Positions 2,143 through 21,003 of a stretch of DNA of 46,790 nucleotides are shown piece after piece. Position 1 is the stretch's first letter; every line of letters begins with the position of its first letter. Below the pieces are notes generated by a model. That model was not told where the DNA came from and did no database searches. It saw only the letters and a program-made list of their open reading frames with translations. A program made the translations under genes and the position numbers. Origin of the DNA: Thomasclavelia cocleata (GTDB taxonomy: Bacteria; Bacillota_I; Bacilli_A; Erysipelotrichales; Coprobacillaceae); contig NZ_FOIN01000020.1 of NCBI RefSeq assembly GCF_900102365.1, positions 1-46,790 on the forward strand, in the 5' to 3' direction.

Positions 2143-4395
2143 ATGGCAGATGAAAATGTAAAAAAAGCGCAAAGATATTTAAACAGTATGTATGGTCATC
2201 GTTCGGAATGGGTAAAATTGGAAGAAGATGGTATTACAGGAACAGGTACATGTCAAGGAATTATTAGAGCGTTTCAAATTGAAAATGGAGTTACACCAGT
2301 TACAGGTAATGTTGGTGATGTTACATTAGATAAAATGAGATCATTACCAAAAATTTCAAAGATGAATGCTAATGATAAAAGTAATGCAAATGTTTGTATT
2401 TTACAATGTGCATTATTTGCAAAGGGATTTAATGCAGGTGGTATTACTGGAATTTATTATACTACAGGTGTTAATGCAGTTACTCAATTTCAAGCATATG
2501 CTAATCTAGAACAAACAGGAATTATTGATTGGAAAGTATGGATGGGATTAGTTTCACTTAACTGGTTTACTATGTCTAGTGGAGGAGATACTAATATTAG
2601 GACTATTCAAAGACAATTAAATGCTGACTGGTCTGATATTATTGGTGTAGGTCCTTGTGATGGTGTTGTGTCAAGATTTACTGCTTACGCATTAATTGCA
2701 GCATTACAAGCTGCAGAAGGTATTTACACAGATTTTATAGGAAGCCTTGATGGGACTAATTTTGGTAATCAGACAACAGATAAATTTCCAGATGTATTAA
2801 AAGAAAACCAGAATGGTGATTTTATAAAATTTAACAAATTAGTACAATATGGTCTATATACAAATGGTTATAATCCTAGAAGATTTGATGGGATTTTTGA
2901 TTCAACAACTAAAGAAAGAGTATCAGAATTTCAAGAGTTTTATGCACTTACCGGAATAGGGCTTGTAACACAAGGTGAAGTAAACTGTGCAACTATGAAA
3001 TCATTGCTTACTAGTAAAGGTGATACAAGCAGAAAGGCAAAAGCATGCGATTGTTCAACAGTTTTAAATAAACAGCAAGCTTTAGACTTAAAAGCAGCAG
3101 GATATCAAGTTGTAGGTAGATATTTAACTGGAACTGTTGGTTCAAGTACAAGAAAGTTTATTACTTTTGAAGAAATTGAAAATATTAAAAATGCAGGATT
3201 AAGAGTATTCCCTATTTATCAAGATGGAGGATACAGATTAGAGTATTTTCAAGATTTAAGACAAGGAACAGTGGATGCTCATACTGCAATTGCATCAGCA
3301 AAGCGTATTGGTATCCCAAGTGGAACTACTATTTATTTTGCGGTTGATTTTGATTGTTATAGTTATCAAATGTCGTCATTTATTGTACCTTATTTTAGAA
3401 AATTGAACTTAGTATTTAATAGTTCTACAAACTCAAAGAAATATAAAGTAGGAATTTATGGTCCAAGATATGTGTGTTCGTATATTAGCGATTTAGGACT
3501 TGCAAAATATTCATTTGTAGCAGATATGTCTAGTGGTTTTAGTTGTAATTTAGGCTATCCTATTCCGAAAAATTGGGCTTTTGATCAGTTTTTTGAATTA
3601 AATGATAATAATGGTGGTAAATTCCAATCTAGTCCTTCTTTTGATTTAGATAAAGATGGATACTCAGGAAGAGATACTGGTATTTCTACTTTTGATGATG
3701 TTCCATATTTAACACCAGATCAATTAGCAGAAAAGAATTCCAATATTATGTTAGATGCTCAAAGAGATCAATATGTTTATAATGTATTTGAACCTTTAGG
3801 TTATTTAGATGTAGTTAATAATGGTAGTCTTACTTATAACGAAGAATTTTTGTTGAATACTATTTTATTAAATGGTTTGACAATTAAAATAACAGCAGAA
3901 GTATCTGATACATTAACTACTGATTTTGATAGTACTCCGATTACAATCGATTTAAACAATGAAGGAGAATTATCGACATCTTGTGAAGCAGAAATAGAAG
4001 GTATGATTGCAGGTATAGAAATTGGTGATTTTGAAAATATTGATATTATTAATTCTACTATCAATGATTTAAAAGATGTTGCTGTATCAGTGACATCAGG
4101 ACAAATAGGTGTGAAAGTGAATTTGAATGGAACTTATCCAAAATTAACATTTGTTATCACTTCAGATGATATTTTTCCAGATTCTGTTTCTGTAGATCAA
4201 GAAATCACAGTTGAAATAAGTTTTGAAATTATTCCAACCCCAACACCTGATGTGGATTATGAATTGGTTTTAGAAACTCTAGCTATTAGTGCACTATCTG
4301 TTGCAGCTGTTATTGGATTAATAGCATTGCTATCTAATCCAGGAACTGCATCATTAGCTCCAGAATATTTAATAGCTTTAGGTGTTTTTGCATAA
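2143..4395 (+). CDS. Large peptidoglycan-binding protein with DUF1906 glycoside-hydrolase-like domain
   Basis: 750 residues. Three peptidoglycan_binding_1-like segments lie near residues 1-75, 80-145 and 150-290 (patterns such as RAFQIENGVTPVTG..VTLDKM and SEFQEFYALTGIGLVTQGEV). A DUF1906 (Rv2525c-like TIM-barrel) domain spans about 300-512: DCSTVLNKQQALDLKAAGYQ, VGRYLTG, IYFAVDFD, GIYGPRYV, AFDQFFE. Residues 513-700 are an unrecognised beta-rich region, and the last 40 residues contain a hydrophobic segment (ALSVAAVIGLIALLS). No signal peptide. Related Firmicutes proteins are thought to act on the wall, but enzymatic activity of this family is not firmly shown. Here it is the last gene of the lysis region, behind AGGAGG and ahead of a terminator. 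It could be a second lysin or a virion-associated wall hydrolase. Confidence 0.75.
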   Translation: MADENVKKAQRYLNSMYGHRSEWVKLEEDGITGTGTCQGIIRAFQIENGVTPVTGNVGDVTLDKMRSLPKISKMNANDKSNANVCILQCALFAKGFNAGGITGIYYTTGVNAVTQFQAYANLEQTGIIDWKVWMGLVSLNWFTMSSGGDTNIRTIQRQLNADWSDIIGVGPCDGVVSRFTAYALIAALQAAEGIYTDFIGSLDGTNFGNQTTDKFPDVLKENQNGDFIKFNKLVQYGLYTNGYNPRRFDGIFDSTTKERVSEFQEFYALTGIGLVTQGEVNCATMKSLLTSKGDTSRKAKACDCSTVLNKQQALDLKAAGYQVVGRYLTGTVGSSTRKFITFEEIENIKNAGLRVFPIYQDGGYRLEYFQDLRQGTVDAHTAIASAKRIGIPSGTTIYFAVDFDCYSYQMSSFIVPYFRKLNLVFNSSTNSKKYKVGIYGPRYVCSYISDLGLAKYSFVADMSSGFSCNLGYPIPKNWAFDQFFELNDNNGGKFQSSPSFDLDKDGYSGRDTGISTFDDVPYLTPDQLAEKNSNIMLDAQRDQYVYNVFEPLGYLDVVNNGSLTYNEEFLLNTILLNGLTIKITAEVSDTLTTDFDSTPITIDLNNEGELSTSCEAEIEGMIAGIEIGDFENIDIINSTINDLKDVAVSVTSGQIGVKVNLNGTYPKLTFVITSDDIFPDSVSVDQEITVEISFEIIPTPTPDVDYELVLETLAISALSVAAVIGLIALLSNPGTASLAPEYLIALGVFA

Positions 4396-7896: not shown

Positions 7897-9543
7897 ATGA
7901 ATAGTTGTGAATTATTAGAATTAATAGAGCAGGGTGAAACTGAAACTACTGAATTTAAATCGTGGGTTAAGACGCCAGATTTTAAGAAATTTATAAAATT
8001 ATGTGTAAAAGAAATAGTTGCTTTATCAAATTCTAGTGGAGGATATTTATTAGTTGGAGTTGAAGATGATCAAAGTATAACTGGTTGTATGGGTTATGAT
8101 TTGCAAAATATTATAGAAAGTATTTATGATAGAACAATGCCTAATATATTTACTAAAGTTGAAGTTGTAAATATAGATAATAAAGATGTAATTGTTATTA
8201 CAGTTGAAAAAGGAAATCAGTTGTATGGTACAACTTCGGGTGAGTATTTTAAACGACTAGGTAAAAATTCAAAACCTTATAATCCAATTAGTATTAAAGA
8301 AGATTTTATTGTAGATAAAGACTATTCAGCTCAAATCATAGGTCAATCAACTATAGATGATATTAATATGTTGGAAGTTTATAAGTTAAAAGAAAAATTA
8401 AAAATGAGGGATAAACAATCGACATTAGTTGAATTAGATGATTTGTCTTTTTTAAAGGACTTATCATTGTTAATAGATACTGAAGATGGACTTAAATTAA
8501 ATGTTGCAGGTATGCTGTTTGTAGGAAAAGAGGAATCTATAAAAAGATATTTGCCACAAGCAGAATGTATATATTTACATTATAGTGATAGTAATCGTGA
8601 TGAGTACGATAATAGATTAGATTTAAAAATACCAATTATTTCTGTTTTAGATAGATTAACTGAAAAAATTCAGGACTATAACCATTTGACTAATGTTCAG
8701 GTAGGATTGTTTAGATTAGAAATATATGATTTCTCAGAAAGAGTATTTCAAGAAGCACTGTTGAATGGATATACACATCGTCGATATGATAGTCCTGGAT
8801 CAATTTATGTAAAGCATTATTCAGATAAATTGGTAATTGAGAGTCCAGGTGGCTTTATGGCAGATATTACTGCTGATAATATTATTACTCATCCATCATT
8901 ACCTAGAAATAAATTAATTGCAGAAACATTGCAAAGGTTACGTTATGTTCAAAGATCAGGACAGGGTATTGATATTATGTATAGAGAGATGGTTTCTATG
9001 GGAAAACCATATCCTGAATATACAGTTTTCAATGATGCTATTCGTTTAACTTTATATAGTGTATTAGAAGATGAAGGATTTGTAAGGTTCATAACTGAAA
9101 CACAAGATAAGAATATGTTCACATTTTCATTACCTGAATTGATGATATTAAGGTATTTATTTGAAAATAAAACTATTAATTTATCAACAGCAAAAGTACT
9201 TACTCAACAATCATTAAATGAAGTTAAACATGCACTTATAAGTTTAGAAAAGTATGGATTAATTGAATTGTCTGGGCGAGTATATATGATGACACCAAGT
9301 TCTTATCATAAAGTAAAATCAGATGTTCAATATACACAAGACAAAACTGTGACTTATTTAAAATCAAAATCACTCATTTTGGATTATTTATCAACACATG
9401 ATAGTATCAATAATGAAACGATTAGAGAGTTATGTAGATGTACAAAAAAACAAGCAACAACTTTTTCAAGAAAAATGAGAGATGAGGGAATTATTGAAAT
9501 GATAGGTAAAAGTACTGCTACAAGATATAAAAAAATAGATTAA
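7897..9543 (+). CDS. AlbA_2 / Schlafen-type ATP-binding transcriptional regulator
   Basis: About 548 residues. The N-terminal AlbA_2 (Schlafen-like) domain (about 5-120: ETTEFKSWV, EIVALSNSSGGYLLVGVEDD) is followed by an HATPase_c_4-type region (about 275-385: FQEALLNGYTHRRY, LVIESPGGF, RSGQGIDIMYREM) and two C-terminal winged-helix segments (about 400-470, 490-548). Such proteins are widespread in Firmicutes and are usually annotated as putative regulators; some Schlafen-domain proteins act in phage defence, but nothing here proves that role. GAGGAG at 7883-7888 selects the ATG at 7897 over the in-frame GTG (7888) and ATG (7891). It lies between a decayed ATPase and an unusual 11-bp repeat. 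Confidence 0.8.
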   Translation: MNSCELLELIEQGETETTEFKSWVKTPDFKKFIKLCVKEIVALSNSSGGYLLVGVEDDQSITGCMGYDLQNIIESIYDRTMPNIFTKVEVVNIDNKDVIVITVEKGNQLYGTTSGEYFKRLGKNSKPYNPISIKEDFIVDKDYSAQIIGQSTIDDINMLEVYKLKEKLKMRDKQSTLVELDDLSFLKDLSLLIDTEDGLKLNVAGMLFVGKEESIKRYLPQAECIYLHYSDSNRDEYDNRLDLKIPIISVLDRLTEKIQDYNHLTNVQVGLFRLEIYDFSERVFQEALLNGYTHRRYDSPGSIYVKHYSDKLVIESPGGFMADITADNIITHPSLPRNKLIAETLQRLRYVQRSGQGIDIMYREMVSMGKPYPEYTVFNDAIRLTLYSVLEDEGFVRFITETQDKNMFTFSLPELMILRYLFENKTINLSTAKVLTQQSLNEVKHALISLEKYGLIELSGRVYMMTPSSYHKVKSDVQYTQDKTVTYLKSKSLILDYLSTHDSINNETIRELCRCTKKQATTFSRKMRDEGIIEMIGKSTATRYKKID

Positions 9544-9559
9544 ATTTTTTAGAATTATA

Positions 9560-9614
9560 ATGGACCGCAAATGGACCGCAAATGGACCGCAAATGGACCG
9601 CAAATGGACCGCAA
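9560..9614 (+). repeat. Five perfect tandem copies of an 11-bp unit
   Basis: ATGGACCGCAA is repeated five times without mismatch, starting 16 bp after the AlbA_2 gene's stop. It is far more GC-rich than its surroundings. Because 11 is not a multiple of 3, coding through it would cycle all frames (MDRKWTANGPQ...). It is not a CRISPR: units are contiguous with no spacers. Confidence 0.95.
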
Positions 9615-9759
9615 AGAGGATTCAAGTTATCATTTATATGTTAAAAGTATTATTCTTTTATTTTTTTATAATATATAGGAGAGGAAATGTTATGATAATT
9701 ATTGTTAAATAAGTAGGTATATTAAAACATGTGATATGTATTTAAATGGAGGTATGTTT

Positions 9760-10044
9760 ATGGCTTTGTTTGATGATTTAAGTAAAAAAGCAGCTAAGTT
9801 TACAGAAAAAACAATTGAAAAATCTTCTGAATTAGCAGATACTGCTAAATTGAAGATTAGCATTAAAAGTGCACAATCAGATTTAGATGAACAATTTATT
9901 AAATTAGGGAAAGTTTATTATGAAATGATTTGCAAAGATAATGTATTTGATGAAGATACAGCAAAAATTGTTCAAGAGATAGATAGTATTAAAAGCAGGA
10001 TAGATAAATTAGAAGATGATTTAAAAAAAGTTAAAAGAGATTAA
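9760..10044 (+). CDS. Small coiled-coil protein
   Basis: About 94 residues from ATG 9760, chosen because GGAGGT (9748-9753) lies six bases upstream; ATGs at 9736 and 9754 are poorly placed. It is nearly all helix, with an amphipathic N-terminus (MALFDDLSKKAAKFTEKTIE) and a heptad-like C-terminus (IVQEIDSIKSRIDKLEDDLKKV). No signal peptide. It resembles small 'zinc ribbon-less' stress/envelope helical proteins common in Firmicutes, but I do not recognise the family. It is monocistronic and closed by a strong terminator. Confidence 0.6.
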   Translation: MALFDDLSKKAAKFTEKTIEKSSELADTAKLKISIKSAQSDLDEQFIKLGKVYYEMICKDNVFDEDTAKIVQEIDSIKSRIDKLEDDLKKVKRD

Positions 10045-10047
10045 TAT

Positions 10048-10091
10048 AAAAAACTATACTAATTAATAGTCGATTGTTAGTATAGTTTTTT
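10048..10091. terminator. Bidirectional terminator
   Basis: AAAAAACTATACTAA pairs perfectly with TTAGTATAGTTTTTT. T-runs exist on both strands, so it can end both the coiled-coil gene (plus) and the thiamine operon (minus). Confidence 0.9.
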
Positions 10092-18173: not shown

Positions 18174-18227
18174 TGGTCCCAGTCAAGTGGACACACAAAA
18201 TAAATAAAGTTGATGACCCAATTGGTA

Positions 18228-18612
18228 TTACTCTGATTGGGTTTTTAAGTTGTTTAGTAATTCATGATACTTTGCTATTCTTGGATTAAATGCAATCGGA
18301 TATTGTTTAGGCTTTACTGTATTCATAGCTTCCATTCTTATTTCCATTGGTGCTTTTGAATTATAACGTTCCTGATAACGCTGGTAATTATAAAAATTTA
18401 TATAATTACCAATTGCCTCTATTAAACTTTCTTTGTCATATATCTCATACATCTTATACATCTCTGTCTTGATTATCCCCCAAAGTCCTTCTGTTGGTCC
18501 ATTATCCAAACAACATGCTACTCTTGACATTGACTGTATCATTCCTGTTCTTTTAGTTGGTTCTGAAATACAGGACTCGTGTATTGATAGCCTCGATCAC
18601 TGTTATACCGAA
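18228..18612 (-). pseudogene. IS3-family transposase OrfB C-terminal fragment (type 1)
   Basis: The minus strand reads YNSDRGYQYTSPVFQNQLKE, then a one-base loss near 18545 shifts the frame into MIQSMSRVACCLDNGPTEGL..FYNYQRYQERYNSKAPMEIR. These are rve-domain motifs of IS3/IS150 OrfB: second D in SDRG, and catalytic E expected in GPTEGLWGIIKTE. The fragment is truncated at the GAATTC junction and frameshifted. Confidence 0.85.
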
Positions 18613-18908
18613 TTCAGTATAATTCTGATCGTGGAGTACACTATACATCACAAAAATATAAAGAATTGACAAAGGGGATGATACGAAGCTATTCAGGAAA
18701 AGGGAATCCATGGGATAATGCATGTATAGAATCATATCATGCAGTAATAAAAAGAGAGTGGCTAAACAGATTTAAGATAATGAACTATAAACATGCATAC
18801 CAGCTGGTGTTTGAATATTTGGAGGGATTCTATAATACAGTAAGAATCCATTCGCATTGTGATTATTTATCACCAAATGAGTATGAGATGAGATATGTGT
18901 TAGAGTAA
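18612..18908 (+). pseudogene. IS3-family transposase OrfB C-terminal fragment (type 2)
   Basis: Open without a start from the junction: IQYNSDRGVHYTSQKYKEL, then MIRSYSGKGNPWDNACIESY..KREWLNRF..YNTVRIHSHCDYLSPNEYEM. The catalytic E is in NACIES. It is the C-terminal part of an IS3/IS150 OrfB of a different subtype from the minus-strand half. The last 14 codons match those at the window start. Confidence 0.85.
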
Positions 18909-18937
18909 ACTAACTAAATTTCTTACATTTAGTTAGT
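18909..18937 (+). terminator. Hairpin after IS transposase fragment
   Basis: Same 11-bp stem as at 45-73 (ACTAACTAAAT / ATTTAGTTAGT). Confidence 0.5.
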
Positions 18938-19085
18938 CCTAATTCTTGACATAGGACCAACCTTTTCTTATATTTGAAAGACATGTGGCAAAATGTAAAA
19001 GAAATTGAAAAATAGAACAATATCCACATCATTTTGTTATATGAATAAGGTTGTTTCAACAACAAAATTGCGTATGCAGGTTAAA

Positions 19086-19422: not shown

Positions 19423-19515
19423 ATGAGCGATTTTGAAATACTTTCATTAGTATTGATAATCCTATCAATTGTTGTAACACTACTCCTTGAGATAATCAAA
19501 GGAAACAAAAAATAA
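19423..19515 (+). CDS. Type I toxin-like hydrophobic peptide, copy 1
   Basis: Thirty residues: MSDFEILSLVLIILSIVV, then TLLLEIIKGNKK. A short polar N-terminus, one membrane helix (about 7-25) and a basic tail match the holin-like toxin group (Hol_Tox / TxpA-BsrG-like) of Gram-positive type I systems. GGAGGTG at 19410-19416 gives strong translation. The leader folds (GGTC/GACC, AGAG/CTCT, TCTCT/AGAGA), which could mask the RBS. Its 3' end overlaps a convergent antisense RNA. Too short for ordinary gene calling but conserved in the second copy with one change. Toxicity is inferred. Confidence 0.75.
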   Translation: MSDFEILSLVLIILSIVVTLLLEIIKGNKK

Positions 19516-19632: not shown

Positions 19633-19726
19633 CATACATTTGATTTTATAATTTAAAATATATTAAGATGAAATGACTACTTAATTTAATAAGTAGTTTT
19701 TTGTTTTATAAAGAATGGAGAGTGTT

Positions 19727-20002
19727 ATGGAAAAGATACAGAGAACTACAATATGGTTATCACCAAATATTATGAACAGTCTTGATGATATGAAATCAAA
19801 AGCAAACTGTAAAAGCAGAAGTGAATTTATTGAACAGACAATAAAATTTTATAGTGAATATAATGATTCCATGAATAAAGAACAGTATCTTCCATTATCG
19901 ATATCATCTGCAATGAATGGAATGATTAAAGTAAGTGAAGATAGGATTTCAAAACGTTTATTTAAGAATACTGTTGAATTATCTATGATGACCTCCCAGT
20001 AG
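19727..20002 (+). pseudogene. Ribbon-helix-helix protein, copy 1, truncated by IS3 remnant
   Basis: From ATG 19727 (GGAGAG at 19717; the ATG at 19715 overlaps it) the frame gives MEKIQRTTIWLSPNIMNSLD.. and continues like copy 2 to ..TVELSMM, then enters IS sequence and stops (TSQ). The RHH fold (TTIWLSPNIMNSLDDMKSK, then CKSRSEFIEQTIKFY) is intact; the C-terminal third is lost. CopG/MobC-like RHH proteins bind DNA as dimers and serve as relaxosome or partition factors. The truncated form might still bind DNA and interfere with copy 2. Confidence 0.75.
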
Positions 20003-20504: not shown

Positions 20505-20598
20505 CATACATTTGATTTTATAATTTAAAATATATTAAGATGAAATAACTACTTAATTTAATAAGTGGTTTTTTGTTTTATAAAGAATGGAGAGTGTT

Positions 20599-21003
20599 AT
20601 GGAAAAGATACAGAGAAGTACAATATGGTTATCACCAAATATTATGAACAGTCTTGACGATATGAAATCAAAAGCAAACTGTAAAAGCAGAAGTGAATTT
20701 ATTGAACAGGCAATAAAATTTTATAGTGAATATAATGATTCCATGAATAAAGGACAGTATCTTCCCTTGTCTATTTCATCGGCAATGAATGGAATGATTA
20801 AAGTAAGTGAAGATAGGATTTCAAAACGTTTATTTAAGAATACTGTTGAATTATCTATGATCATGAATGTCTTATCAGCAACAGTAGATATAGATAATGA
20901 TACACTTAAAAAATTAAGAGTAAAATGTATCAGAGAAATTAATGGAATAAATGGAAAACTTGATTTTGAAGAAATTAACAGATACCAAAAAAGTTGGTGC
21001 TAG
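20599..21003 (+). CDS. Ribbon-helix-helix DNA-binding protein, copy 2
   Basis: 134 residues from ATG 20599 (GGAGAG ten bases upstream; the in-frame ATG at 20587 overlaps it). The N-terminal RHH motif STIWLSPNIMNSLDDMKSKA + CKSRSEFIEQAIKFYSEY is followed by a helical C-terminus (MNVLSATVDIDNDTLKKLRV..LDFEEINRYQKSWC). CopG/MobC-like proteins act as relaxosome accessory or plasmid-control factors. The intact copy of the gene cut at 19989. It directly follows the toxin-antitoxin locus in both cassettes. Confidence 0.75.
   Translation: MEKIQRSTIWLSPNIMNSLDDMKSKANCKSRSEFIEQAIKFYSEYNDSMNKGQYLPLSISSAMNGMIKVSEDRISKRLFKNTVELSMIMNVLSATVDIDNDTLKKLRVKCIREINGINGKLDFEEINRYQKSWC

Follow-up and report, generated by a model that had tools for sequence, protein, structure and literature searches.

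Recombinase-in-trio (RIT) elements have been known since 2009 and were described mainly from proteobacteria between 2009 and 2013 (PMC2864759, PMC3414803). Their hallmarks are three adjacent, overlapping tyrosine recombinase genes ritA/B/C, a length of ~3.4-3.5 kb, and terminal inverted repeats (PMC3414803; PMC2864759). Insertions of RITs within transposase genes are already on record (Van Houdt 2012, PMC3414803; PMC2864759; and Ricker 2013, as cited in PMC10214605), and a mention of a palindrome close to ritA and ritC dates from 2012. The target specificity of RITs is given as untested in the available RIT papers. The locus described here lies in the window, that is, the whole 46,790-nucleotide stretch of Thomasclavelia cocleata DNA that was analyzed. 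It is likely the scar left by a RIT element, with the RIT itself gone and parts of two different insertion sequences (IS) fused through a palindrome at a catalytic Asp codon.

The unit occupies exactly positions 18174-18959 and, as an earlier note on this sequence had claimed, consists of the right ends of two distinct IS3-family elements, here called IS-X and IS-Y, placed head to head around GAATTC (Table 1). Its 786 bp contain two right ends but neither a left end nor a complete transposase, with inverted and similar outer ends (TGGTCCCAGTCAAG and TGGTCCTATGTCAAG) that correspond to two similar IS3 right ends, and no target duplication was found at its edges (ATC / ACC). Each arm encodes the C-terminal half of a DDE transposase (Pfam rve_2 in each case, and rve_3 in the right arm), and both start with the second catalytic Asp codon (SDRG). 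The IS-X arm, whose protein begins SDRGYQYTSPVFQ, matches rve_2 with E=2.4e-9, and the IS-Y arm, which translates as SDRGVHYTS...VLE*, matches rve_3 with E=3.3e-10. Each arm has the orfB DDE C-terminal half and the right terminal repeat of the IS3 family; the left end and the complete orfA/orfB of an intact IS3 element are absent from the unit. The 38-bp imperfect palindrome noted previously at 18594-18631 is also present, with 30 of its 38 positions self-complementary around the central GAATTC. The two arms are indeed cut at one and the same protein position, but this is SDRG and not YNSDRG as first thought: on contig C22, intact IS-Y has ...VVIQSDRGVHYTS, so that the Y-N codons and GAATTC lie outside the IS. 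The right-end fragment at the contig edge indicates that IS-Y is repeated in the genome.

Table 1. Features of the fused unit and of the related fragment at the contig edge (window coordinates)
Feature	Position	Strand	Remarks
IS-X right part, IS3-family (IS150-like) orfB 3' part	18174..18598	-	Frameshifted; from second catalytic Asp codon GAT (18596-18598) to right terminal repeat (18174)
Spacer N5 ACAGT, palindrome to IS-X	18599..18603	-	Junction alignment
18-bp palindrome TATACCGAATTCAGTATA, putative RIT attachment module	18604..18621	.	Recurs in the genome, and outside RIT terminal repeats elsewhere
GAATTC, module centre; in effect no EcoRI ligation scar	18610..18615	.	
Spacer N5 ATTCT, palindrome to IS-Y	18622..18626	+	Junction alignment; AAAGC in the intact IS-Y copy on C22
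IS-Y right part, different IS3-family orfB 3' part	18627..18959	+	97% identical to IS-Y on C22; from second catalytic Asp codon GAT (18627-18629) to right end GGACCA (18959)
Second IS-Y right-end fragment, contig edge	1..95	+	97% identity to 18865-18959

Several other features were seen in or near the unit. The IS-X coding region contains a near-perfect 30-bp palindrome (18382-18411), and the IS-X copy on contig C16 has one too. Beyond the unit, a 30-aa hydrophobic ORF at 19423-19515 (MSDFEILSLVLIILSIVVTLLLEIIKGNKK) follows a GGAGG motif and is similar to small holin-like or type I toxin peptides, and a duplicated gene (MESVMEKIQR[T/S]TIWLSPN..., 19715-20002 and 20587-21003), with its first copy truncated, lies in a duplicated stretch.

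GAATTC stands in the middle of an 18-bp palindrome, TATACYGAATTCRGTATA, which is not IS sequence; the longer 38-bp palindrome consists of this 18-mer together with the likeness of the IS-X and IS-Y coding sequences (GATCG on either side). Its strength is ordinary: the arms are 10 bp long with no more than one mismatched pair, and 20 Markov shuffles of the window reached maxima of 10-15. The genome contains five copies of the 18-mer core, four exact and one with 1 mismatch, and no match to a control pattern consisting of the 18-mer read backwards. The palindrome by itself is unexceptional, and its recurrence is beyond chance. All four copies outside the window (C16:4996, C38:14161 and C43:36930, exact; C28:21475, 1 mismatch) abut an IS3 right part that starts at the same Asp codon. 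A native feature of the IS is ruled out by the intact IS-Y at the start of contig C22 (97%), where VVIQSDRG is read through and the palindrome is missing. The palindrome also occurs in related species and across Clostridia, just outside one RIT terminal repeat. When 85,000 species genomes were scanned for the 18-mer, 81 stretches were obtained, of which ~40, nearly all from Bacteroidota, were set aside as coding sequence for YTEFGI rather than insertions (L048, L050, L052, L061 and about 35 more carry the identical coding 18-mer). At the one Bacteroidota locus examined, YTEFGI lies inside an intact 271-aa ORF of KilA-N/RhuM appearance, and the presence of the 18-mer in this type of gene is probably convergence.

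Contig C16 of the source genome carries a RIT element, with its trio of overlapping tyrosine recombinase genes, and the palindrome stands just beyond one end. The element's three adjacent, overlapping ORFs (1737-2939, 2911-3894 and 3878-4909 of L047) encode proteins of 400, 327 and 343 aa, all matching Phage_integrase (PF00589), and the 3374 bp between the RIT ends, with a ~71-bp terminal inverted repeat, fit the RIT size of ~3.5 kb. The candidate catalytic Arg/His-x-x-Arg/Tyr motifs, picked out by eye only, are HFLRH/LGHSDPNSTNVYI in RitA, YDLRHH/MGHSNLESTYYYL in RitB, where Tyr replaces the first His, and HMLRK/LGHESMSTTSGFYAF in RitC. This complete RIT sits in a copy of IS-X, the right half of which is 93% identical to the IS-X part in the window. 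The IS-X left part, ending FHSD, abuts the terminal repeat opposite the palindrome (left junction FHSD/YAEEKTIPKF, right junction palindrome/SDRGYQYTS). The assembly contains only three RIT ends, and the RITs of C16 and C38 both carry the palindrome at the ritC end. The C38 element (L151 of G000, about 8430-10061) lacks its front part, and a group II-type reverse transcriptase ORF leads into a truncated, broken ritC. Searches of the genome with RitC and with the RIT ends placed neither a RIT end nor a recombinase in the unit 18174-18959; the window locus is probably a RIT product and is not itself a RIT.

A common insertion rule emerges from seven RITs, among the remaining stretches and in related genomes, for which both ends were readable (C16, L041, L055, L079, L085, L114 and L126), from a search that located RIT loci via the palindrome and would therefore miss RITs without it. 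All seven interrupt a transposase gene at its second catalytic Asp codon. The host left part, ending in that codon (HSD, HTD, LTD or VD), abuts one RIT end (7/7), and the palindrome and host right part stand at the other end whichever way the RIT points (7/7), the palindrome adjoining ritA in four cases and ritC in three. The order is IS-left - N5 - GAY - TATGCCGAAG...ritABC...CTTCGGCATA - RTC - N5' - TATACYGAATTCRGTATA - N5 - GAY - IS-right. When the flanks of five insertions were joined, a continuous DDE transposase reading resulted, with the second Asp codon restored. Hosts are mainly IS3 elements, and also include IS21-like (PDNLKTG), IS30-like (TDNGSEF) and another DDE type (VDNGGPYKND), the latter three named by motif recognition and only some of them confirmed by Pfam. 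Among 29 palindrome/right-half junctions, picked for having that form, GAY is common to spacer positions 6-8, and the 5-nt spacer is variable. Two other roles for the palindrome were considered. Two RITs in one Clostridium genome, related to the C16 element, identical over 3385/3385 bp and inserted in two targets, carry it at opposite ends, which rules out a fixed RIT end; a pre-existing IS target is disfavoured, as it would predict RITs to either side of the palindrome, which is always on the IS-right side.

In IMG/VR, no match was found to the palindrome plus GAY, and there were two matches to the RIT end, both with the palindrome beside the end. In an Acetobacterium MAG (L127:7748-7806), a more distant RIT and palindrome lie against a match to the group II intron catalytic domain (Rfam RF00029), and other RIT lineages may target introns.

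Considered together, these junctions suggest that the palindrome serves as a symmetric attachment module, and that an integrated RIT keeps one live site. In the proposed scheme, the simplest that accounts for them, the RIT would form a circle (RIT end - RTC-N5' - palindrome - N5-GAY - RIT end) containing two inverted crossover sites, one on each side of the palindrome, each comprising half palindrome - N5 - GAY - RIT end. Recombination of one circle site with an IS target (IS-left - N5 - GAY - IS-right) would produce the IS-left/RIT and palindrome/IS-right junctions, and the unused site (RIT end/palindrome) would stay competent for attachment in the chromosome. Such a scheme would place the palindrome on the IS-right side, allow both RIT orientations and leave the other site intact. 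At the window locus, a RIT presumably once sat in IS-Y, and its remaining site would have reacted with the corresponding codon in a second element, IS-X. This would attach IS-X-right to the palindrome's other side, giving right half-palindrome-right half, and the RIT would have departed with the two IS-left halves, by inversion, deletion or exchange, and later been lost. The earlier suggestion of recombination at the palindrome is retained in this scheme; the accompanying idea that the palindrome was common to both IS is not, since it is foreign to both, RIT-borne, and inserted at SDRG.

The same chimera had been proposed as something to look for in related genomes, and right-half/right-half fusions around the same palindrome were found in three other genomes: Erysipelatoclostridium sp. 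An173 (L124; TDRGNEF / ADRGAHY, one arm supported by Pfam), a eubacterium MAG (L115; NDQGCQF / NDRGCQY, both arms supported by Pfam), and a Ruminobacter MAG (L116; SDKGCHY / SDNSCQF). In addition, the complete plasmid of Arthrobacter sp. U41 (L168:2640-6130) has the palindrome and IS3-right on both sides of one RIT, an arrangement expected as the other rearranged product of reactions among RIT and palindrome sites; in the IS3 copy on the left, identity extends for 57 bp, after which the copy breaks off. Palindrome-only insertions (L105, L039, L057 and L067) look like scars after RIT loss. The lone palindrome at L067:1497-1514 (Clostridia MAG RGIG3519) lies in the YADD active-site motif of a group II intron reverse transcriptase, a gene recognized by motif only, and reads RFVRYAD / YTEFGIV / ADDCVITV, with a near 8-bp duplication. 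A RIT flanked by two IS-left halves, which would be the reciprocal product, did not turn up when the source genome and its family were searched with the RIT-end pattern. In a relative (G002), the flanks of the window locus are on different contigs with other neighbours.

Homologous recombination offers a different route to the same structure. Two RIT-bearing IS copies, with opposite RIT orientations relative to the IS, could recombine through the 3.4-kb RIT to form right half-palindrome-RIT-palindrome-right half, from which the RIT and one palindrome were deleted later. Exactly this arrangement is present on the Arthrobacter plasmid, and both RIT orientations occur. However, the route requires a second event that removes the RIT together with exactly one palindrome, and in the source genome the C16 and C38 RITs both have the palindrome at the ritC end, with no oppositely arranged copies seen. 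As the whole explanation it is rather improbable; the data are also compatible with homologous recombination between RIT-bearing copies as an intermediate step. Palindromes promote template switching, and the junction is a palindrome, so that replication slippage or fold-back could be imagined to have joined the IS right halves without a site-specific recombinase. This is very unlikely: each arm derives from a different IS element, and the right-right geometry is repeated between further IS pairs elsewhere, without exception at the same codon.

The junction also coincides with an EcoRI site, and the earlier note raised an EcoRI ligation artefact. The junction lies on one contig of a draft genome of 88 contigs, several of which end in IS copies. 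Yet IS homology ends ~11 bp from GAATTC on each side, and the conserved unit that separates the IS sequence from GAATTC is the 18-mer plus spacers. Conservation extends over the full 18-mer, the module is found in many independent assemblies, among them single-contig genomes and a complete plasmid, and a repeat of 18 bp is too short to mislead the usual assemblers. An EcoRI artefact is effectively excluded and an assembly error in the window contig is unlikely, leaving ligation or assembly artefact together with scarcely any probability.

The most general proposition, for which the balance of evidence is about even, is that RITs in general possess a symmetric palindromic attachment module with two live crossover sites and home to the catalytic-Asp codons of other mobile elements' enzymes, namely IS3, IS21-like, IS30-like and other DDE transposases, and perhaps the group II intron YADD codon seen in L067. 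If true, by keeping one live site, RITs would fuse halves of the elements they parasitize, and so rearrange genomes. There is a simple reason for a catalytic codon to be the target of another mobile element, since it is multi-copy, conserved and dispensable, and the same anatomy offers a simple reason for a tail-to-tail IS fusion. In the available papers, the RIT ends, the target rule and mobility are unresolved; the anatomy offered here, with its palindromic module, its active-site-codon target in other transposases and its predicted circle junction, makes all three testable. The role and position rule of the palindrome, the catalytic-codon targeting and the IS-IS fusions appear undescribed in the accessible papers, and part may stand in Ricker 2013.

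Compared with the IS3 family (IS150-like), both arms of the window unit are orfB right halves with SDRG, and IS-Y also has the WDNACIES motif, but the unit differs in having no complete copy, two right ends and no target duplication. Tn554-type transposons and strand-biased circularizing elements (SEs) have a short spacer beside the element end, as do RITs. They are likewise multi-recombinase and target-specific elements (PMC10214605). They differ from RITs in their gene content, and the available literature mentions no 18-bp palindromic module in them. The closest relatives are the known RITs, which share the recombinase trio, the length, the terminal inverted repeats and insertion in transposase genes. 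To these features the present elements add a palindrome on the host right-half side irrespective of RIT orientation, insertion at the DDE transposase codon for the second catalytic Asp, and fusions of two right halves that stand without a RIT.
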